The notes beneath the pieces were generated by a model. That model saw only the letters and a program-made list of their open reading frames with translations. It was not told where the DNA came from and made no database searches. The translations under genes and the position numbers were made by a program. From Brevibacillus ruminantium (lineage in GTDB: Bacteria; Bacillota; Bacilli; Brevibacillales; Brevibacillaceae): a stretch of DNA of 64,000 nucleotides. The stretch lies in assembly GCF_023746555.1 (NCBI RefSeq), contig NZ_CP098755.1, positions 4,906,001 through 4,970,000 on the forward strand, read 5' to 3'. The stretch's first letter is position 1. Every line of letters begins with the position of its first letter. Of this stretch, positions 6,088-59,546 are shown piece by piece.

Positions 6088-6915
6088 CTACATAATCCTT
6101 TCAAATTGCTTCCTCGTCATACGCTGAATACTTCCGTTGTAGTAAATCTTCGCGGGCCATCTTACCAGGTTCAGATCAATCACAGGCTCGGGATAGCATC
6201 TGCAGTTAAAGATTTCACCTGCGTTGTAGTTGCCGAATGTGCGATTCTGCCCATCAAGTTTTTCAGGAGACGGGGGAGCATTCCATTTCACTAGTACGCC
6301 ATCCATGATCTTGTGCGAGCTACGCACCCTTGAATCCTCGCTTGTGCGCCAGACGTACCAATCAGCCCCAACAAACTCGCTGCGGGCCTGTGTGAGAGCC
6401 GTAGACGTCTTACTCACTTCGGTACGGGCGATCAGGTTCGCCTTCGCTTTTGACGCCTCAGGAAAGTATGCCTTGATTTGTTCGGCAATCTCACTTGACC
6501 TGGTTCCCTTCATGACCTCACGCATAACATGCTTGTTAACCTGCTTTGCCACATCGAGAGGTAGAGATTTGATGACAGCAGCATTACGCTCTACTTGCTG
6601 CCGGACAGACGCGCCAATCGGCCCGCGCATTTCTTTTTGCAAAGCCTGGTAGATGAGTCGCCCCCTGCTGTTATGTTTTGCTGCTTGCCTCCATGTTCTT
6701 CCCGCATCACTAAACAGGTGAGTAACCATTTTCATGGCTTGCGCTTCGGCATATGCCACGAAATCCGAGTTGTAGGCATAATCCCTGATTCGACTAAGAA
6801 TTTCCGAGGCGTCTTCCAAACCGTCCAAGGATTCGCCTAAACTTCTCAAAGCTGTTTGAATCGCTCTGCGGTATGCCTGCTCGATCCGGCGTTTCGGTGC
6901 CCATAAATCCGCCAT
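6088..6915 (-). CDS. Phage head morphogenesis protein (Mu gpF / SPP1 gp7 type)
   Basis: 275 aa. The C-terminal 150 residues carry the family pattern: RTEVSKTSTALTQAR, then WRTSEDSRVRSSHKIMDG, and the closing AGEIFNCRCYPEP, where N-C-R-C is the hallmark. In SPP1, gp7 binds the portal and a few copies enter the head. The start is ATG at 6915 with GGTGGTGA about 8 nt upstream, so the first 40 codons overlap the end of the portal gene out of frame. The N-terminal KRRIEQAYRRAIQ is typical for the family, which supports this start. Confidence 0.75.
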   Translation of the reverse strand: MADLWAPKRRIEQAYRRAIQTALRSLGESLDGLEDASEILSRIRDYAYNSDFVAYAEAQAMKMVTHLFSDAGRTWRQAAKHNSRGRLIYQALQKEMRGPIGASVRQQVERNAAVIKSLPLDVAKQVNKHVMREVMKGTRSSEIAEQIKAYFPEASKAKANLIARTEVSKTSTALTQARSEFVGADWYVWRTSEDSRVRSSHKIMDGVLVKWNAPPSPEKLDGQNRTFGNYNAGEIFNCRCYPEPVIDLNLVRWPAKIYYNGSIQRMTRKQFERIM

Positions 6916-8332
6916 AGTCTAAATCACCACCAAACCCAAGCTCTCCCTGATGGAAAGTATCGTCAGCCTGCTCGATGTCGTTATCTGTGATGTTGCTAAA
7001 CATGCCGACTGTTTCGGACATTTGCTTCAGCTCTTTCATGGCAATCTTTTGGCTGATGAGTCCGGCGTTGTACGTCTCGATGATTGATTTTGTTTTCTTG
7101 TCGGCTAGTTCAGCCACTTCCTTGTCATCTGGCGTCCGGATCGGATTAAAGGCATAATCCAGGTCATCCGGGATTGCTCCAAATTCGCTCATACACATGA
7201 TCGGTAGCAGTTTATCAAGGATTGGTCCAAGGATGGACTCTTGCCCCTGCTGAACGATCTCGTAATAGTTCTGCATGTCATTCTCTCCAGTTGCGTTTAG
7301 ACCGGCTGGAGAGCGTCCAAACAGCTTTGTAACCGGAATCTGGCATGCCCCAGCAATATCGAGCATGAAACTTTCGTAAATATCATTAAGACCGGCGAAT
7401 GAATACTGGTGTGTTGCGAAGTCGTCCTCTTTGTTGAGGATATACATTCCCATGTTAGACATCAGCCAGTTTTGCATTGTTAAAGTGTTGTACAAATCCT
7501 TTTGAGAGCGTTCATCCCCGACAGCTAATAGCTCGCCAAAATCGCTCATTTTGAGAACGCGCAAGTTGGCAAGAAAAATAAGCTGGGCTATATTCCAGCT
7601 CGTATTGTCGCGTTTCTTCAGTTCATCAAAGACCACTTCAACCTCAGACGCGCCCCAATACACCTCTGCAAGCTTCTCCCAATAAGGAAGCTCACGGCCC
7701 ATGAATCGAATAATTCGGCTGTGGTGAACGTTTGCGACCTGCCCATCTTCTAATGTCAGTTGGTACGACTGTGGCAAGCCGAATTCAGGGTCGTCTAGGT
7801 CCTCGACAAGCTCGGGATTGGGATAGATGCCTGACCATCGATCTACGATCATCAAACCCTTCAGAGAACCCGGCATGATTGTGTCGTAGTCTAAAGGCTC
7901 ATGTAGGATGTCTTCGTGCCCTTCGATCATGATAAGACCAGCTGCGCCGCCGTATAACCGGCCCCATTTCAACCCTTGGAGGATCTTTTGTCGAATCCTT
8001 CTGACGCGCCATACCTTGTCCAGCTTTCGGATTTCGTCAGGAGGAAGCTGTGTCGTTATGGTTATCCAGTTGCGGGTCATGTCTTCCGGGATAGTGTCGA
8101 TGATCTTTCTGACGATCCAATGCTCGCGGTACAAGGTATTCATAAGCTGATAGTTTTGCGTCAGCCTGGTCAAATTGTAGTTGGTGCCTTCCATCAGGTT
8201 CGGTGTGCCTGCCCCCAACCTCGCCAGAACGTTTTGAAAAGCGTCTGTGGTCAATCCTTTAGGTGTCTTAGGCACCGGACTCTTAGGAGGCATCCTAGCG
8301 TCTTTTACGGCGTTTCTTTTGCGTCTGCTCAA
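6794..8332 (-). CDS. Portal protein (DUF1073 type)
   Basis: 512 aa, the right size for a portal subunit. The start region is basic and the body shows LMNTLYREHWIVRKIIDTIP followed by EDMTRNWI, the typical beginning of DUF1073 portals. FGRSPAGLNATGEND and YYEIVQQGQE in the C-terminal third are also typical. Twelve copies form the ring through which DNA enters the head. It lies immediately downstream of the large terminase gene, as usual. The last 122 nt overlap the gp7-like gene. Confidence 0.82.
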   Translation of the reverse strand: MSRRKRNAVKDARMPPKSPVPKTPKGLTTDAFQNVLARLGAGTPNLMEGTNYNLTRLTQNYQLMNTLYREHWIVRKIIDTIPEDMTRNWITITTQLPPDEIRKLDKVWRVRRIRQKILQGLKWGRLYGGAAGLIMIEGHEDILHEPLDYDTIMPGSLKGLMIVDRWSGIYPNPELVEDLDDPEFGLPQSYQLTLEDGQVANVHHSRIIRFMGRELPYWEKLAEVYWGASEVEVVFDELKKRDNTSWNIAQLIFLANLRVLKMSDFGELLAVGDERSQKDLYNTLTMQNWLMSNMGMYILNKEDDFATHQYSFAGLNDIYESFMLDIAGACQIPVTKLFGRSPAGLNATGENDMQNYYEIVQQGQESILGPILDKLLPIMCMSEFGAIPDDLDYAFNPIRTPDDKEVAELADKKTKSIIETYNAGLISQKIAMKELKQMSETVGMFSNITDNDIEQADDTFHQGELGFGGDLDYGGFMGTETPDRAGIPQSDSNSFEKFRRILGRFGRRLGNS

Positions 8333-8358: not shown

Positions 8359-9645
8359 CTAGCTTGCAGAAGCTAATCTCCGTGGAGTAATGACCGTTTT
8401 CACGAAATATCTCGTACCATCCATGCAGTGATCGTTTTGCTTGATTGGTTTTTCGATCCCTTTTCCTGATGCCTTCTCATCCCAAATGTAACTCGCCCTT
8501 TCCTTGAGGAAATTGGGACAATTATGTTTATGAACACGTATTTTCCGTTTCAGGATCATGGTCTGTGTCATGCGAATGCCATCCTCAACATCGTTGTCGG
8601 CATCCTTAATACGGTAACCCCGATTCCGAAGCGCAGCCTTAAAGCTCGCCGCCGATGGGTCGATGATTGTAAAGGCTGGCAAGAATTCTGTACCGACAAA
8701 CTCCTCAAAGTCATCTGCATATTGGGAATCCTCTTTTTGAATGCCTTTGTCACGGCCATCATAATAGTATTCGTTGAGAATCCAACATGTATCGCCATCA
8801 TCCCATATGTCCAGGAATACCATGGCGTTTTGCGTCCCGTAGTCAACGGCAATGTGTCTTCTTGCACGATATTTAAAGCCTTGTGGTAAATCGTCATCAT
8901 CGAAGGTATTTTCGTCATCATCCCACATGTCGTAAATGATGCCTTGTGCAAGCACCCAAAGTCCAAGAATAAAGCGCTTGTAGAAAACCCCCGAGTACAT
9001 CCGTTTATATCGCTCTTTTGTTTTGGGCGAGAGCGAAAGGTTGTCATCCATCGTGAAATGGATATGAACCGCGTTTTTCTCCTCGAGTTTGTCCAACCAT
9101 TCAAGTTTGAACCAGTGGTAAGGGCCTGCCGGATTACAGTTGAACCAGTATTTTGCTCCTTCTACCGAACACCGCGCCGTAGCTTGGTCTACGAAAGACT
9201 TCGGCATCAGTGCCACCTCGTCGAAGAACATGCCGGCCAGCGTTATCCCCTGGATCAGATCCTGCGAGCTTTCATCCTTCCCGCCAAACAGGTAAAAGTA
9301 ATTCGTTTTACCTTTATAGGTGATCGTCAGGTAATTGTCTGCCCTGTGGTCCTTGACCTTGTAACCTCTGCCTTTCAAGATACGCTTTAGAGGTTGCAGG
9401 ACGTTCCTTCGTAACGCGCCGATTGTCTTCCCAGCCATCCCCAAGTTCTCGCCGCTGAATGTGTCCATGGCCCAAGCAACAAATGAGAAAGACATAACAA
9501 TCGTCTTCCCAGCACGAACGGACCCATCACAAATAATGGCGTCCCTATCCTTTACAGGAGAGTCGGGGCGCCACCACGTCAAAACCTTCAGTTGTTTCTT
9601 TGAAAAAGGTCTCCATTTAAATGATTCCTGATTTTTCTTTCTCAT
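8359..9645 (-). CDS. terL: Large terminase subunit (PBSX type)
   Basis: 428 aa motor that cuts and packages phage DNA. Walker A is GSVRAGKT (41-48) and Walker B with the catalytic Glu is MFFDEV (139-144). The nuclease half has the expected acidic residues: D268 in AVDYGT, D329 in IIDPSA, D409 in HCMDG. The order and spacing are those of the PBSX/SPP1-like TerL group. It is followed at 26 nt by the portal gene and preceded by a 236-nt gap and terS. All key residues are present, so it should be functional. Confidence 0.9.
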   Translation of the reverse strand: MRKKNQESFKWRPFSKKQLKVLTWWRPDSPVKDRDAIICDGSVRAGKTIVMSFSFVAWAMDTFSGENLGMAGKTIGALRRNVLQPLKRILKGRGYKVKDHRADNYLTITYKGKTNYFYLFGGKDESSQDLIQGITLAGMFFDEVALMPKSFVDQATARCSVEGAKYWFNCNPAGPYHWFKLEWLDKLEEKNAVHIHFTMDDNLSLSPKTKERYKRMYSGVFYKRFILGLWVLAQGIIYDMWDDDENTFDDDDLPQGFKYRARRHIAVDYGTQNAMVFLDIWDDGDTCWILNEYYYDGRDKGIQKEDSQYADDFEEFVGTEFLPAFTIIDPSAASFKAALRNRGYRIKDADNDVEDGIRMTQTMILKRKIRVHKHNCPNFLKERASYIWDEKASGKGIEKPIKQNDHCMDGTRYFVKTVITPRRLASAS

Positions 9646-9881: not shown

Positions 9882-10775
9882 TCACTCATCTTCGTCGTCC
9901 CAAATCTCTTCTGTTTTACCATCAAGAGCTTCCAGGAAACCGTCGTCCTCCTGTTCACCCTCATCGCCTCGTAGATGTGCAACTTCAAGTCTGGCCTTCT
10001 CAAGCTTCAGGCGCTGTTCTTCAGTCATGAAGTCAACGTACTTTTCCAGTTTTTCCAGCGCCTTCATTTTGTCGTGGAGCTTGATCGACACGCCATCTTT
10101 ACCTTGCCTGACTTCTCCTACAACCGTTCCGTCAATCTCATCGCTGTTCTTGAACGAAACGTAGTTACGTTTGTATGTCATTGGCTCGCCAGTTGTAGGA
10201 TCGATGGCTGGATTGCCTTCGTTGTCATACAATGGCTCGTCCTTTTGACCAAACTCAAGAAGGTCTGTGATATCCGCGAAAGCTATCTTCATGTATTCCG
10301 CAATGACTCGCTGCACATCTAGCCCCAACTCTTTAGTACGCTGTTCCTTATGGCGCTGGATTTCAGCTTGAACTTTAGGATTCCTCAGGGTTTCCCACCC
10401 AACAACATGAGCGGTCTTCTTGCTATACCCTGCAGCCATTGCTGCCCGTGTAATGTTGAAGTCTCGTAAATACTCAATCACAAAAATCCGCTGTTTATCA
10501 GTCAGGTCGTCTGCTTCGACTTCCACGGCTGGAGGAGGCTTCTTTCGTTCTGTTGCTCTATTGGAGCGCTCCGTTCCTTTTTTCGTTCCGTTCCGTTCCT
10601 TTGATTGGAACGTTCCGTTCAATTGCTCGTCCCACTTGTCTTTGTTCTTCCATCCCCGGACAGTGCCTTCAGATATGCCGAGCTGATCGGCTATATCCTT
10701 TAGCTTTATCTCTCCATTGGACTGTTTCCATATCTCGAATGCTTTGTCTCGGTTCGGATCCCTTGCTCTTGCCAT
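9882..10775 (-). CDS. terS: Small terminase subunit (PBSX/YqaS type)
   Basis: 297 aa DNA-recognition subunit of terminase. Residues about 3-45 form the N-terminal helix-turn-helix of PBSX-type small subunits (IKLKDIADQLGISEGTVRGW), with KNKDKW following. After a charged linker, LTDKQRIFVIEYLRDFN and ITRAAMAAGYSKKTAHVVG mark the second, Terminase_2-like DNA-binding domain. The C-terminus is a coiled coil with a very acidic tail (EEIWDDEDE), as expected for contact with TerL. It precedes terL in the same direction. Confidence 0.85.
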   Translation of the reverse strand: MARARDPNRDKAFEIWKQSNGEIKLKDIADQLGISEGTVRGWKNKDKWDEQLNGTFQSKERNGTKKGTERSNRATERKKPPPAVEVEADDLTDKQRIFVIEYLRDFNITRAAMAAGYSKKTAHVVGWETLRNPKVQAEIQRHKEQRTKELGLDVQRVIAEYMKIAFADITDLLEFGQKDEPLYDNEGNPAIDPTTGEPMTYKRNYVSFKNSDEIDGTVVGEVRQGKDGVSIKLHDKMKALEKLEKYVDFMTEEQRLKLEKARLEVAHLRGDEGEQEDDGFLEALDGKTEEIWDDEDE

Positions 10776-10815
10776 TACATATTCACCACCACCGTTTGGT
10801 TAATTGATTCAAACG

Positions 10816-10896
10816 TTAACCCATCCACCACTTTCTGAAACGAGGGCAAAACATGATTAATGTGACACCTATCATCACGCCTATAATGTAGCCCAT
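10816..10896 (-). CDS. 26-residue membrane peptide
   Basis: Read directly: ATG at 10896 preceded by GGAGGTG at 6 nt. The product is one hydrophobic helix (GYIIGVMIGVTLIMF) followed by a basic end (PRFRKWW). The ribosome site is strong enough to make translation likely. It follows two other small genes in the same direction ahead of terS. It might be a small lysis or membrane accessory peptide, but nothing in the sequence shows this. Confidence 0.5.
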   Translation of the reverse strand: MGYIIGVMIGVTLIMFCPRFRKWWMG

Positions 10897-10924
10897 ATCA
10901 GGCACCTCCGTAATGCCGCCATTT

Positions 10925-11098
10925 TTATGTATTTCTGTTTATACGATCAAGCAACTCCTTGCGCTCTTCGTACCATTCTCTACGTTCTTCTTCGTGTCTC
11001 CTCATCAACTTTTTACAAGATTCTTCCCAGAGTAAATTTAGTTTTCTGATCGCCAAAGTACTAAGCACTCCTACTACCATCAAAGCCGCAAGTAACAA
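10925..11098 (-). CDS. Small single-pass membrane protein with charged coiled-coil tail
   Basis: 57 aa if started at TTG 11098: hydrophobic helix LLLAALMVVGVLSTLAI, then a strongly charged helix rich in Glu and Arg ending RINRNT. The topology is that of small phage membrane proteins, some of which accompany holins. The start is uncertain: AGAGGTGA lies 15 nt before the TTG but ideally spaced (7 nt) before an ATC codon at 11107, and a TGA closes the frame just above. Either the TTG is used weakly or the rare ATC is the start. Confidence 0.45.
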   Translation of the reverse strand: MLLAALMVVGVLSTLAIRKLNLLWEESCKKLMRRHEEERREWYEERKELLDRINRNT

Positions 11099-11140
11099 TT
11101 GTTCGATTAGAACTCACCTCTCCGCTGTTGTGTCTTTCGT

Positions 11141-11266
11141 TCAGCTCTCCACATCGGCTTTCTTCCCCCATCTAATCTTCTCTTTCTCCCGATATGCAAT
11201 CACGCAATCTTCCCATTCGACGAGTTTTCCGTCTTTGGTTGGCATTGTGATTTTAACGATGGTCAT
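11141..11266 (-). CDS. Small phage protein, 41 aa
   Basis: ATG at 11266 with GGAGGAG 8 nt upstream. The product begins MTIVKITMPTKDGKLVEW, a short beta-hairpin pattern, followed by a charged helix. It lies 2 nt after the stop of the tiny frame 11269-11334, so the two may be coupled. I do not recognise a family. Confidence 0.5.
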   Translation of the reverse strand: MTIVKITMPTKDGKLVEWEDCVIAYREKEKIRWGKKADVES

Positions 11267-11268
11267 GC

Positions 11269-11334
11269 TTATTCTCCTCCATACTGCCGCAAAAATTTCA
11301 ACGTATCATTGTGACATTGCCATTTCTCCAGCAA
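11269..11334 (-). CDS. Tiny reading frame upstream of the 41-aa gene
   Basis: 21 codons starting at TTG 11334, with GGAGG at 8 nt. It ends with the GGAGGAG that serves the next gene, so it may act as a leader that couples translation. No similarity is recognised. It is listed because the ribosome site is good; it could equally be a by-product of the terminator region just upstream. Confidence 0.25.
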   Translation of the reverse strand: MLEKWQCHNDTLKFLRQYGGE

Positions 11335-11355
11335 TATGGATTCCTCCCTCAACAA

Positions 11356-11388
11356 GAAAAGCCACCCGGGTATGTTCCGAATGGCTTT
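11356..11388 (-). terminator. Rho-independent terminator after the tRNA-like element
   Basis: On the minus strand AAAGCCA (11388-11382) pairs with TGGCTTT (11365-11359), and the hairpin is followed by TTTTCTT. It lies 12 nt after the 3' end of the tRNA-like fold, so the structured RNA would form a discrete transcript ending here. Confidence 0.65.
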
Positions 11389-11400
11389 CCGCTTTGTTAT

Positions 11401-11520
11401 GATGCAGGCAAGGATTTGCACCTTGCATGAATGCAATTCCGGCAAGCGCCCTCTATTCAAGCGAATTCGGCAACTATGCACTCTTATGGTATAAGCGTCT
11501 ACCTATTCCGCCACTGCATC
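11401..11520 (-). tRNA. tRNA-Leu-like element, unusual or degenerate (120 nt)
   Basis: On the minus strand a perfect 7-bp acceptor stem (GATGCAG / CTGCATC) encloses a typical tRNA-Leu D-arm (TGGCGGAATAGGTAGACGC) and a T-arm GCAAGG-TGCAAAT-CCTTGC. Oddities: the T-stem has 6 bp instead of 5, no CCA is encoded, the anticodon arm is poorly paired (candidate anticodons TAA or AAG, both Leu), and the variable region is far too long. It contains an imperfect repeat starting TTGCCG-AATT about 29 nt apart. It may be a tRNA-Leu with an internal duplication, a decayed gene, or the 3' module of a larger phage RNA. Confidence 0.45.
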
Positions 11521-11745
11521 TTTTTATAAGCACGGCGGGTAATCTGATACCCAGGCCCGTCATGCGTTTTGATTGTGCGCGGTTTTGCGATTAACCACAC
11601 ATCGCCAAGGTAACAACAGCGATTCTCGGCTCGCGACACCTACTTCAACCGCGCGAAAGCTCCGAAAGCGAAAGGCCCGCGAATGCGCAGTCCCTTCACC
11701 CGACCGGGATACCCCGATCCCTTGTGTTCACTGGCAATTGGTACG
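11521..11745 (-). ncRNA. Candidate structured phage RNA upstream of the tRNA-like element
   Basis: No convincing gene explains this block, but the minus-strand RNA can pair extensively: GGGAT/ATCCC (11706-11721), a long-range 8-bp helix GCGCGGTT/AACCGCGC (11647-11654 with 11577-11584) that encloses an ATCGC/GCGAT hairpin (11601-11623), and a two-part hairpin ACGG...CCGT with GGGTA/TACCC (11532-11560). An extended -10 (TGG-TATAAA, 11773-11781) lies just upstream and a terminator downstream. In one frame it can also be read as a 39-codon and a 46-codon segment separated by TAG (11640-11642), so a decayed small gene is the alternative. Confidence 0.4.
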
Positions 11746-11768
11746 ATAACCTTTTTGCCTCACTATAT

Positions 11769-12251
11769 CTAGTTTATACCACGAATATCTTTTTGTCGGT
11801 GGCATTTGGGTGGCATCTTTCGTATCCTGCTCGAAATTCGTTTGATATGGTCGTAACTGTAACCCAATTTATCGGCAATCTCCTGAAGACGCATATGAAG
11901 CTTGTCCCGCATGAAAGCTACCTTGTACTCCAGATCATCCATTTGAGCAAGTATCCGATCCAACCTATCCATCGTTTCTTGCTTTGCCTTTAGCTGATCT
12001 CGTAGTTGTCCCAATGTTTCGTCAATCTTGTTCATTCGCTCTATAATCCGATCCAGAGCAAACGGGACAAAGTTGGATTGCACCCTATCTTTGGAGTAAT
12101 CGACCGCCCCGGGTAACTTTGGTGCATTGGCATGCATGTTGGCAACTAGAAACCTTCGCTCCTTTTCCAAATCCGTAATTCGTGTCTCTAGGATGTCTAT
12201 TTCCATGATCAACTCGTTATAGGTGGATTGGAACTCCGCCAATGCGCTCAT
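11769..12251 (-). CDS. Phage late-gene regulator with sigma-4-like helix-turn-helix
   Basis: 160 aa. The N-terminal two thirds are coiled coil (long heptad helices with Glu/Lys/Arg). The C-terminus has a helix-turn-helix, LQEIADKLGYSYDHIKRISS, like sigma region 4, as in the DUF1492/ArpU/RinA group of phage regulators that switch on packaging and structural genes. The position, right before the non-coding block and the terminase genes, fits such a role. The ending MPPKCHR is a phrase I associate with these regulators. DNA target and mechanism are inferred. Confidence 0.6.
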   Translation of the reverse strand: MSALAEFQSTYNELIMEIDILETRITDLEKERRFLVANMHANAPKLPGAVDYSKDRVQSNFVPFALDRIIERMNKIDETLGQLRDQLKAKQETMDRLDRILAQMDDLEYKVAFMRDKLHMRLQEIADKLGYSYDHIKRISSRIRKMPPKCHRQKDIRGIN

Positions 12252-12262
12252 CTACATTCCCC

Positions 12263-12676
12263 CTATTGTGCAACCTGTTTTTGCTTGGCTCGGTCAAAGG
12301 CATCCTGCATATCCGTTCTTGCACGGGCAGTGTACATCCGGCTCGCTTGACTCGATTTGATCTTCTCTATCTGAGCTTGTGCTTTTCGTAGGTCTTGGAA
12401 GTAGCTTTGGTGTCTGGTCATCACATCAAAAAGCGGCTGTAGCTGTGCTACTTGGTCTTTTGCTTTCCGACGATTGACCCTATTCTCCTTTTGCTGGACT
12501 GCCAGCTGATACCCTTCGGCCGCATTGAATTTTGTTAGCTCCAGCGCATGGGTCAGGTCGTTGTATTCATGCTCGTAGTAAATAATGTCTGATTCGTTCT
12601 GTTGTACTGCCGATCGTACTGCTTGGAATGCCGTAATGAACTGAGAAGTTAGTCGCAAAGCATCGATTTCGTTCAC
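12263..12676 (-). CDS. Coiled-coil phage protein, unknown
   Basis: 137 aa from GTG at 12676, chosen because GAGAGGTGA lies upstream just after the preceding stop; longer starts would run into that gene. The protein is helical and charged throughout, with many Gln and Arg and no cysteine or membrane segment. It lies just ahead of the late regulator and overlaps nothing. No family recognised. Confidence 0.5.
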   Translation of the reverse strand: MNEIDALRLTSQFITAFQAVRSAVQQNESDIIYYEHEYNDLTHALELTKFNAAEGYQLAVQQKENRVNRRKAKDQVAQLQPLFDVMTRHQSYFQDLRKAQAQIEKIKSSQASRMYTARARTDMQDAFDRAKQKQVAQ

Positions 12677-33368: not shown

Positions 33369-34949
33369 ATGTCTTTACGCGCCGTTGCTTACCTACGTTA
33401 CAGTTCAGACAATCAACGGGCTGAATCAATAGACGCACAGTTAAAAGCAATTAAGGAGTATTGCAAGCGAAAAGGGTATATCCTTGTCGGCACATACACA
33501 GACGAAGCTAAAACCGCTACGACTGACCGCCGTCCAGATTTTCAGCGTATGATGGCTGATAGTTCTATGGGCATTTTTGACGTAGTTGTGGTACACAAGC
33601 GTGATCGGTTTGCGCGTGATCGTTATGACAGTGCCTTTTACAAACGCTTGCTAAAAAAGAATAATGTCTTACTTGAAAGCGTCCTGGAACAGTTCGACAA
33701 TTCTCCAGAATCAATTATTTTAGAGTCTGTTCTTGACGGTATGGCAGAATATTACAGTGCCAATCTAGCCCGTGAAGCTCGAAAAGGTATGGCCGAAAAT
33801 GCTGAAAAAGGGTTGCACGCTGGCGGCCGTCCTCCATACGGATATAAGGTAAACCCCGAAACGCTGAAATATGAGATTGACGAAAAAACGTACAGGGCTG
33901 TACAGATTTACTTCGAAGGGATCGCTAGCGGTCTATCCGTACCTCAGATTGTAGAGTTACTGAATGAACAAGGATTCCGTACAAGAACAGGAAGGAAATT
34001 TACAAAGAACAGCTTTGACGGCTGGGCATCGAATCAGAAATACAAAGGCGTATATACTTGGGATGTAGCCAGCGCCAAAAATGAGGATGGCAAGCGAAAT
34101 ACCCATAAGAAAAAACCAGTCGAACAGCAAGTAATTATACCGGGGGCTATTCCAGCGATTGTATCCAAAGAATTATGGGAAAAGGTGAACGCCATTATGG
34201 CCGACAGAAAAAAGAAACCTGGGGCTTTCAAGTCGAAAATATTGTATCTCCTTACTGGAAAGGTTCGCTGCGGAAAATGCGGAGCAAACTACGCGGGTAA
34301 TTCTTACGTTAATCACAAAGGCGGCAACCATTTAAGATACTACCGTTGCGCTGCCAAGTGCGGTAATACAGGCGTGAGGAAAGAAGACTTGGAACATATC
34401 GTTATCGAACAGCTTGTAGAAAACTGCTTTACCGATGCGGCCATGATAGAAGTTGCACGCAAAGTACAGGACCTTTATCGGGAACAAAAGGCCAGCAGTC
34501 AGCAAGATATACAGCCGATCAAACGCGAAATTGCAGAAACTGAAAAGAAGCTGAATAACTGGATTGAAGCGATCGGCGAAGGGCTGCTTGATAAAAATGT
34601 ATTGGCTGAAAAGATCAAAGAAGCAAACCAGCGGAAAGTTATTCTTGAATCCGAATTACACCATATCGAAGTAATGAACAGTATCAATGACATTGACGAA
34701 AAACTGATTATCGACTTACTGGAACAGAAAAAGCACTCGCTTTTCTCCGACAGCGACGAAGAAAAAAAGCAAGTGCTCCAGGAATTCGTTCAGGAAGTAA
34801 TTATACTGCCATCCAGGGATATTAACAACTTTTATGTAGAATTAACATGCAGGGTTTTTAATGGTGGAGGCGGGGGGATTCGAACCCCCGTCCGAAAACA
34901 GCGATACATAAGCATCTCCGAGCGCAGTCACTCATTTAGATTTCGGTGA
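33369..34949 (+). CDS. int: Large serine integrase, reading into ssrA
   Basis: 526 aa from ATG 33369, with AGGTGA 8 nt upstream. Resolvase domain with AYLRYSSDNQRAESIDAQ (catalytic Ser in YSS) and DVVVVHKRDRFARDRYD; a recombinase domain with KGLHAGGRPPYGYKV; a zinc ribbon with CGKCGANY and CAAKCG; a long coiled coil. All parts for integration are present. The last 28 residues, starting at GGGGGIRTPV, are encoded by the antisense of the tmRNA 3' end. In the free phage the C-terminus will differ, since it depends on the attachment junction. Confidence 0.9.
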   Translation: MSLRAVAYLRYSSDNQRAESIDAQLKAIKEYCKRKGYILVGTYTDEAKTATTDRRPDFQRMMADSSMGIFDVVVVHKRDRFARDRYDSAFYKRLLKKNNVLLESVLEQFDNSPESIILESVLDGMAEYYSANLAREARKGMAENAEKGLHAGGRPPYGYKVNPETLKYEIDEKTYRAVQIYFEGIASGLSVPQIVELLNEQGFRTRTGRKFTKNSFDGWASNQKYKGVYTWDVASAKNEDGKRNTHKKKPVEQQVIIPGAIPAIVSKELWEKVNAIMADRKKKPGAFKSKILYLLTGKVRCGKCGANYAGNSYVNHKGGNHLRYYRCAAKCGNTGVRKEDLEHIVIEQLVENCFTDAAMIEVARKVQDLYREQKASSQQDIQPIKREIAETEKKLNNWIEAIGEGLLDKNVLAEKIKEANQRKVILESELHHIEVMNSINDIDEKLIIDLLEQKKHSLFSDSDEEKKQVLQEFVQEVIILPSRDINNFYVELTCRVFNGGGGGIRTPVRKQRYISISERSHSFRFR

Positions 34950-35216
34950 TGGATTCGCGGAGTGACGCGCTGACCCAGCACCTAGCCTGATTGATCTTCT
35001 TCCTTTGGCCCCAGGCGGAGACCTCCGGCGTATCCCACTAAAGTTGAGCGCTAGTCATGCCACATGGGCGATGGAATGGTAGCGCCTCACTGGTTATTAA
35101 GCAGCGAGAGAAAGTTGTTTGTTGCCAGTTAATGGCGTTTGCGTTGATGACGAGGTCCGCAACCCCCCGGCTCGCTTCTTATGCTCTACCATCCCCGTCG
35201 AATCCAGAACGCCCCC
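34862..35216 (-). ncRNA. ssrA: tmRNA (ssrA), integration site of the prophage
   Basis: 355 nt. The 5' end GGGGGCG pairs with 3' CGCCTCC (one G-U pair), followed by A and encoded CCA at 34862. The T-arm sequence GGTTCGAATCC-type is at the 3' side. The tag frame at 35126-35097 reads G-N-K-Q-L-S-L-A-A then TAA TAA. It rescues stalled ribosomes with SmpB, encoded next door. The prophage lies against its 3' end and must restore that end on integration, so tmRNA should still work. Confidence 0.9.
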
Positions 35217-59471: not shown

Positions 59472-59546
59472 GCGCCCGTAGCTCAGTGGATAGAGCAGCG
59501 GTCTCCGGAACCGCGTGCGGAGGTTCGACTCCTCTCGGGCGTACCA
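59472..59546 (+). tRNA. tRNA-Arg (CCG)
   Basis: 75 nt with encoded CCA. Acceptor GCGCCCG / CGGGCGT (first pair G-U), D-arm with AGCTCAGTGGATAGAGC, anticodon loop CTCCGGA (anticodon CCG), T-arm GGAGG-TTCGACT-CCTCT type. The 3' end is repeated twice downstream in the tandem units. Confidence 0.9.

Follow-up and report, generated by a model that had tools for sequence, protein, structure and literature searches.

Plant RNA viruses carry tRNA-like structures at the 3' ends of their genomes, some with a pseudoknotted acceptor arm, and phage phi29 has an RNA of about 120 nt, the pRNA, that is tied to packaging and has no tRNA elbow. Phages and prophages also encode the RNAs ROOL (RF03087) and GOLLD, which are of unknown function and often lie near tRNA islands (PMC12286853). 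Here we describe a phage element of another kind, found in a 64,000-nt stretch of Brevibacillus ruminantium DNA (contig NZ_CP098755.1, positions 4,906,001 to 4,970,000; this whole stretch is called the window, and coordinates refer to it unless stated otherwise). On its minus strand, within a prophage and ahead of the prophage's packaging genes, positions 11400-11520 form a 121-nt tRNA-Leu-like structure (TLS) that keeps the acceptor stem, D-arm and T-arm of a leucine tRNA around an insert that takes the place of the anticodon arm.

With class II tRNA-Leu (RF00005) the TLS shares the acceptor stem, U8, the leucine-type D-arm with A14, A15, G18G19 and A20a, U48, the T-arm and mostly A73. It differs in the absent anticodon arm, the insert of 23-151 nt, an acceptor sequence that is almost free and, in clade A, a T-stem of 6 bp and G55. 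We rejected its classification as a tRNA: the arms that hold the elbow bases are present, but there is no 5-bp anticodon stem, 7-nt loop or readable anticodon, nor, in the window, a 5-bp T-stem. A tRNA-Leu split by a group I intron was likewise rejected, as no scanned locus gave an Rfam intron match and the inserts measure 23-151 nt. Like tmRNA (SsrA, RF00023), the TLS has an acceptor and T-arm that enclose a long insert in place of the anticodon arm, and in both RNAs this insert can include a pseudoknot; the TLS differs by a full 3-bp D-stem, a leucine D-loop, the lack of a tag frame and a length of about 95-220 nt against about 350 nt. Assignment to tmRNA was rejected, ARAGORN and Rfam matching only the host tmRNA at 34862-35216. 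ROOL and GOLLD are large RNAs of hundreds of nucleotides with other folds, and the original prediction, made from the letters of the window alone, was right to be cautious about them: the block around the TLS matches neither family in Rfam, and this assignment too was rejected. The plant-virus structures share with the TLS a viral origin, a tRNA-like fold and, in some, pseudoknots; the TLS is instead a gene of DNA phages, in which the acceptor stem is a true one and the insert is the site of the pseudoknot. The phi29 pRNA is similar in size and the TLS often adjoins terminase genes, but the TLS also occurs far from packaging genes. We regard the TLS as a new class of RNA, despite its evident descent from tRNA-Leu and an architecture reminiscent of tmRNA. 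No Rfam family matched the TLS in any locus scanned, we saw no annotation of it, and no description turned up in full-text literature searches, which excluded most subscription journals, bioRxiv and a 2017 paper on 224 candidate RNAs.

Results

To test the TLS in the window we built a covariance model, R1, from 39 phage elements that did not include the window's own. R1 recovered 11520-11400 with 61.1 bits (E=1.7e-13); its second-best match in the window has E=0.55. In the host genome the runners-up were 84-nt, tRNA-Leu-sized places with 36 bits. The distance between 61 and 36 bits indicates that the TLS is related to tRNA-Leu and yet clearly separate from it. The RNA fold and the membership in the family described below are near certain. 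Counting relatives with R1 in the genomes of the host family (39 genomes, identical to the order-level set) was uninformative, because ordinary tRNA-Leu-like genes matched in every genome.

The acceptor stem pairs GATGCAG (11514-11520) with CTGCATC in all seven positions (11401-11407) and is followed by T8 at 11513 and by the leucine-type D-arm GGCGGAATAGGTAGACGC (11495-11512). The 68-nt insert (11427-11494) ends with U48, and the T-arm (11408-11426) has a 6-bp stem, GCAAGG/CCTTGC, and the loop TGCAAAT, in which G55 replaces U55. The 3' strand of the acceptor stem runs on to the discriminator A73 (11400-11407), and CCA is not encoded. Two of these features are derived: the 6-bp T-stem, which yields a stacked acceptor/T helix of 13 bp, and G55. 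The leucine-type D-arm, perfect acceptor stem and 6-bp T-stem that had been predicted are thus found exactly at 11520-11400, with a length of 121 nt rather than 120 nt.

Is this element confined to the window? BLASTN against 50,697 phage records matched phages of Listeria, Brochothrix, Enterococcus, Leuconostoc, Lactobacillus, Bacillus, Geobacillus and Paenibacillus, with alignments that cover the D-arm and T-arm and leave the middle mostly unaligned. A DNA pattern of 28 fixed bases with a free gap found at least 120 stretches in viral contigs, and at least 120 more with a longer gap; such counts from exact-pattern scans of viral contigs are lower bounds, and our sets of elements were drawn among the matches listed. 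Across 84,980 genomes of bacteria and archaea the same pattern matched just 14 loci, 13 of them in Bacillota as judged by their titles, and the exact pattern had no match in 398 genomes of the host phylum. Thus, the element is rare in chromosomes. Among 366 distinct matches listed for a combined pattern, 347 have at least six of seven acceptor pairs together with a T-stem, neither of which was part of the pattern. The module is widespread in phages, usually without the 5' domain found in the window and sometimes inside tRNA arrays, which could not be seen from the window alone.

More than 200 non-redundant elements were obtained from phages of Listeria, Bacillus, Geobacillus, Paenibacillus, Enterococcus, Leuconostoc and Lactobacillus and from metagenomic phages; 210 of them, a few with T-loops other than TGCAAAT, underlie the statistics given here. 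All 233 listed elements with the TGCAAAT loop have the 6-bp T-stem, and only 2 of them encode CCA. U48 is a T in 210 of 210 elements, at a position that was left free in the scans. A scan for the T-arm only gave 162 distinct places listed, most of which have a leucine D-arm: it is exactly GGCGGAATAGGTAGACGC in 89 and differs by one or two bases in most of the others.

The scaffold is maintained by compensatory change. Acceptor pairs 2-6 form in 99-100% of the 210 elements, compared with 40-57% in shuffled controls, and all four Watson-Crick types occur in them. The four outer pairs of the T-stem show the same kind of variation to a lesser degree; its two inner pairs, like the D-loop, were set by the search patterns. 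In an alignment of 39 sequences 98.7% of the cells pair, 12 of the 16 pairs have changed on both sides, and the cells changed on both sides number 152 compared with 38.9 in shuffles, a signal that collapses in all slid controls. The D-stem is compensated as well in elements from the T-arm-only scan (TGGTGG...GACAC, TGACGG...GACGT, TGGAGG...GACTC). The predicted phage RNA with a tRNA-Leu-like 3' module has thereby gained support, given the extensive compensatory change in its acceptor and T-stem and a search of the block against Rfam that gave no match.

A second clade was found in metagenomic phages, with the T-loop TTCGAAT or TTCAAAT, mostly a 5-bp T-stem and often the acceptor strand AGTCAGG; it was picked by pattern and distance only, may include misread places and was less strictly tested. 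Several metagenomic phage contigs (L377 6253-8320, L308 7183-12207, L381 5777-7678 and others) hold several tRNA-like elements each, often among tRNA genes. In L377 most of these agree in the acceptor, AGTCAGG, and in the T-arm and have unrelated inserts, and some of the D-arms are not of the leucine type. In the copies of L392 and L465 the D-loop itself is enlarged by some tens of nucleotides, inserted between AATAG and GTAGACGC. Next to leucine-type TLSs there are also tRNA-like matches that are over-long and have D-arms of other types (L057 5449-5553 and 4972-5063, L077 4557-4668, L130 410-505). The scaffold principle may extend to other tRNA species.

The inserts differ in sequence between groups of elements while the scaffold persists. 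About half of them have a helix in a common position: in 52% of 206 inserts a helix of at least 6 bp has a 3' strand that ends exactly 2 nt before the T-stem, compared with 15% in shuffles and about 10% at offsets of 6-12 nt. In the window this helix, S2, pairs GAGTGCA (11477-11483) with TGCATTC (11429-11435) over 7 bp. A short hairpin of the CTTA..TAAG type lies at the 5' side of the insert (11483-11495); the motif TTA-N3-9-TAAG stands at the start of the insert in 20 of the 210 elements, where 0.05 are expected from shuffles, and the subgroup with this mini-hairpin includes the window and Geobacillus phages.

In a subgroup around Paenibacillus phage Pd_22F (L002, L198, L217 and L243) the offset-2 helix forms a pseudoknot with an upstream helix. 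Across these four sequences 11 pairs of the whole structure have changed on both sides (0 of 500 shuffles), including pairs in both pseudoknot helices and in the inner hairpin. By eye, the SPbeta-group elements L133, which lies near the HU-like gene, and L135 follow a similar pattern. L135 has, compared with L133, a divergent D-arm (GGCGAAAAAAGTAACCGC), and its insert helices appear, again by eye, to be kept by compensatory changes. Since the family-wide excess of pseudoknots over shuffles is modest, the pseudoknot is supported only for subgroups, and in the window's own insert we found no convincing S1 partner for one.

In the window the TLS may be the 3' module of a longer RNA. The proposed transcript (11356-11757, minus strand, with presumed ends) would consist of a predicted 5' structured domain, the TLS and a terminator-like hairpin. 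The 405-nt block 11356-11760 folds at -149.5 kcal/mol compared with a shuffle mean of -132.5 kcal/mol (z -3.43), and none of 100 dinucleotide shuffles did as well, in agreement with the structured block originally proposed. It has stops in all three minus-strand frames (no selection analysis was run). ARAGORN called no tRNA or tmRNA in the block, and Rfam 15 gave no gathering-level match to it and only chance matches up to E=10 in 10800-12300. A homologous block lies in another genus of the same family (G031:C18:33691-34378), whose TLS has a longer insert and the T-loop TACAAAT and is followed by a hairpin and then a U stretch. The 5' domain (11525-11705) is 83-86% identical to this homologue over about 100-115 nt. 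The hairpin directly 5' of the TLS (11530-11565, GCATGACGGGCCTGGGTATCAGATTACCCGCCGTGC) is compensated between the two, with an identical outer stem and an inner stem of GGGT/ACCC in the window and GGTGA/TCACC in G031. The predicted long-range stem of 8 bp (11577-11654) is present as well, between GCGCGGTT at 11654-11647 and AACCGCGC at 11584-11577, and keeps 6 of 8 pairs in G031, without covariation. A 25-base core of the 5' domain, searched as an exact pattern, was absent from the viral contigs and found only in G031. For this reason we rejected the idea that the 5' domain belongs to the family at large and take the 3' module as the general finding; the RNA of about 400 nt is probably real and lineage-specific.

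This RNA has a possible promoter and a possible terminator. The predicted extended -10 motif exists (TGGTATAAA, about 11773-11781, by eye), but a good -35 is missing and a consensus scan found no sigma-70 promoter. The candidate terminator is a 14-bp hairpin with a U-rich 3' arm (11356-11389) that the consensus scan does not flag.

The gene upstream of the TLS (11769-12251) encodes a protein resembling late transcription regulators (PHROG 36, 5.8e-11; sigma-factor PHROG 1740, 4.8e-6); its best match is an unnamed family. Downstream lie the terminase small subunit TerS (9882-10775; PHROG 2606, 1.9e-92), TerL (8359-9645; PHROG 2, 3.8e-52) and the portal gene (6794-8332; PHROG 146, 3.2e-128), all on the minus strand. 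This order agrees with the context of the family. Among the immediate upstream genes of 100 loci, 19 match PHROG 36, 17 the activator family PHROG 248, 7 sigma factors and 5 Alt-like proteins, with overlapping memberships; upstream neighbours of known function are mostly regulators, and downstream genes match terminase and HNH families. Phage D6E, which also carries a TLS, has a TerL with 62% identity to the one in the window.

Other contexts occur too. In Enterococcus Schiekvirus and Lactobacillus Satyr phages the TLS lies within tRNA clusters, and some contigs hold several copies. A tRNA is found within 2.5 kb at 59 of 209 loci, and three or more tRNAs at 20. In Enterococcus phage vB_Edu_21C1 a phage tmRNA (L130 2645-2995, tag AKNEELLAVA) ends directly before a TLS in a tRNA cluster. 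An Erysipelotrichaceae metagenome-assembled genome (L139) carries a ROOL RNA, a leucine-type TLS and a skipping-rope RNA on one strand within about 5 kb, the ROOL about 3.3 kb from the TLS; ROOL co-occurred with a TLS at 1 of 32 loci scanned, too few to interpret.

Discussion

Based on the retention of the tRNA scaffold around an exchangeable insert, we propose, with a probability of roughly 60%, that the TLS is the 3' module of a phage non-coding RNA, a natural tRNA scaffold that is matured by host tRNA enzymes and presents its insert as an effector acting in trans. As the acceptor stem, the leucine D-arm, U48 and the T-arm are all kept, the acceptor/T-arm helix and the elbow between D-loop and T-loop should form; with the anticodon arm replaced by a variable, usually structured insert, the TLS cannot decode. 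The RNA would be transcribed around the switch to late expression, beside the late regulator gene. Host tRNA enzymes probably mature it: RNase P would cut the 5' end and an RNase Z-type enzyme the 3' end, the latter suggested by the absence of an encoded CCA, with recognition through the elbow and the acceptor stem. We speculate that the closed tRNA-like core would confer stability and that the insert would serve as a phage-specific effector on a host or phage factor. Both the 13-bp stack of acceptor and T-stem and the G at position 55 of the T-loop speak for an exclusion of clade-A elements from ordinary elongation and against a main role as carriers of leucine. Action in trans, rather than only in cis, is likely in view of the TLSs in tRNA clusters and the several copies per contig.

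Several points weigh against this proposal. The RNA is a prediction from sequence, and its recurrent position in siphophages, between late regulator and terminase, also fits a role in cis. Acceptor pair 1-72 shows no preference for G-C, and the discriminator is an A in only 125 of the 210 elements, both unusual for an RNA handled as a tRNA. Moreover, the apparent invariance of the D-arm and T-loop is partly a selection effect, since both were contained in most search patterns; the T-arm-only scan lifts this effect for the D-arm, while it remains for the T-loop.

More tentative is a broader proposal, namely that the TLSs form a superfamily of anticodon-less tRNA mimics in many kinds of phages. 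Fitted with exchangeable inserts, these mimics would pass through the tRNA processing of the host and target factors of the host or of rivals during lysis; some genomes would have several of them in tRNA arrays, and some copies a further insert in the D-loop. The TLS itself would be a widespread class of RNA in double-stranded DNA phages that present annotation overlooks: it is mostly passed over by tRNA finders, has no entry in Rfam, and its site is left blank in phage records or filled with small open reading frames. It would be the natural counterpart of the laboratory tRNA scaffold, would show which tRNA features viruses need once decoding is gone, and would give a concrete handle on why phages keep tRNA islands. 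Laboratory phages of Bacillus subtilis (the SPbeta group) include relatives, which opens the function to direct tests.

The main rival is a role in cis in the leader of the late operon, either as a processing mark for RNase P and RNase Z or as a conditional terminator or antiterminator signal read by the late regulator, in its logic comparable to the lambda 6S leader or the HK022 put sites. It would explain why the TLS directly follows late regulators and precedes terminase in many phages, and in the window a terminator-like hairpin lies just downstream. However, in Herelleviridae, Satyr and many metagenomic phages the TLS lies in tRNA clusters without an adjoining terminase, sometimes in several copies, and if the TLS were nothing but a processing mark, an insert that varies and is pseudoknotted would be superfluous. 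The tRNA arrays and multiple copies thus argue against cis action as a general explanation, which we consider unlikely.

A decoy or substrate of leucyl-tRNA synthetase (LeuRS) is less probable still. Here, the RNA would be leucylated or would occupy LeuRS via the hinge region and so change charging or amino-acid signalling in lysis. LeuRS needs no anticodon, and E. coli tRNA-Leu without its anticodon and variable arms is still charged; leucine identity lies in A73, A15-U48, G18G19 and A20a, with the contacts G18:U55, G19-C56 and U54:A58, of which G18:U55 is important, and is inactivated by C73 (PMC9976931). The TLS keeps A14, A15, G18G19, A20a and U48 (the last in 210 of 210), and the window has A73, so that leucylation of elements with A73 is possible in principle; it is disfavoured by G55 in clade A and by the 40% of elements that lack A73, and the 6-bp T-stem also speaks against the LeuRS reading. 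Finally, a functionless, decayed tRNA-Leu with an expanded variable arm or intron, to which the clear tRNA-Leu origin of the D-arm and the copies in tRNA arrays would lend themselves, is highly improbable, because decay would have eroded the acceptor and T-stem that compensatory change maintains across more than 200 divergent inserts, along with the derived 6-bp T-stem of all TGCAAAT elements and the conserved placement of the insert helix.

Other features of the window

ARAGORN and Rfam find just two tRNA-like genes in the window, a tRNA-Arg at 59472 and the tmRNA at 34862-35216. The latter, on the minus strand, is the host gene with the tag GNKQLSLAA and could be the integration site of the prophage. 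Directly after the block, at 11269-11335 on the minus strand, a tiny open reading frame resembles the start of a small zinc-ribbon-like protein of G031 (LEKWQCH..C..C) and is truncated in the window.
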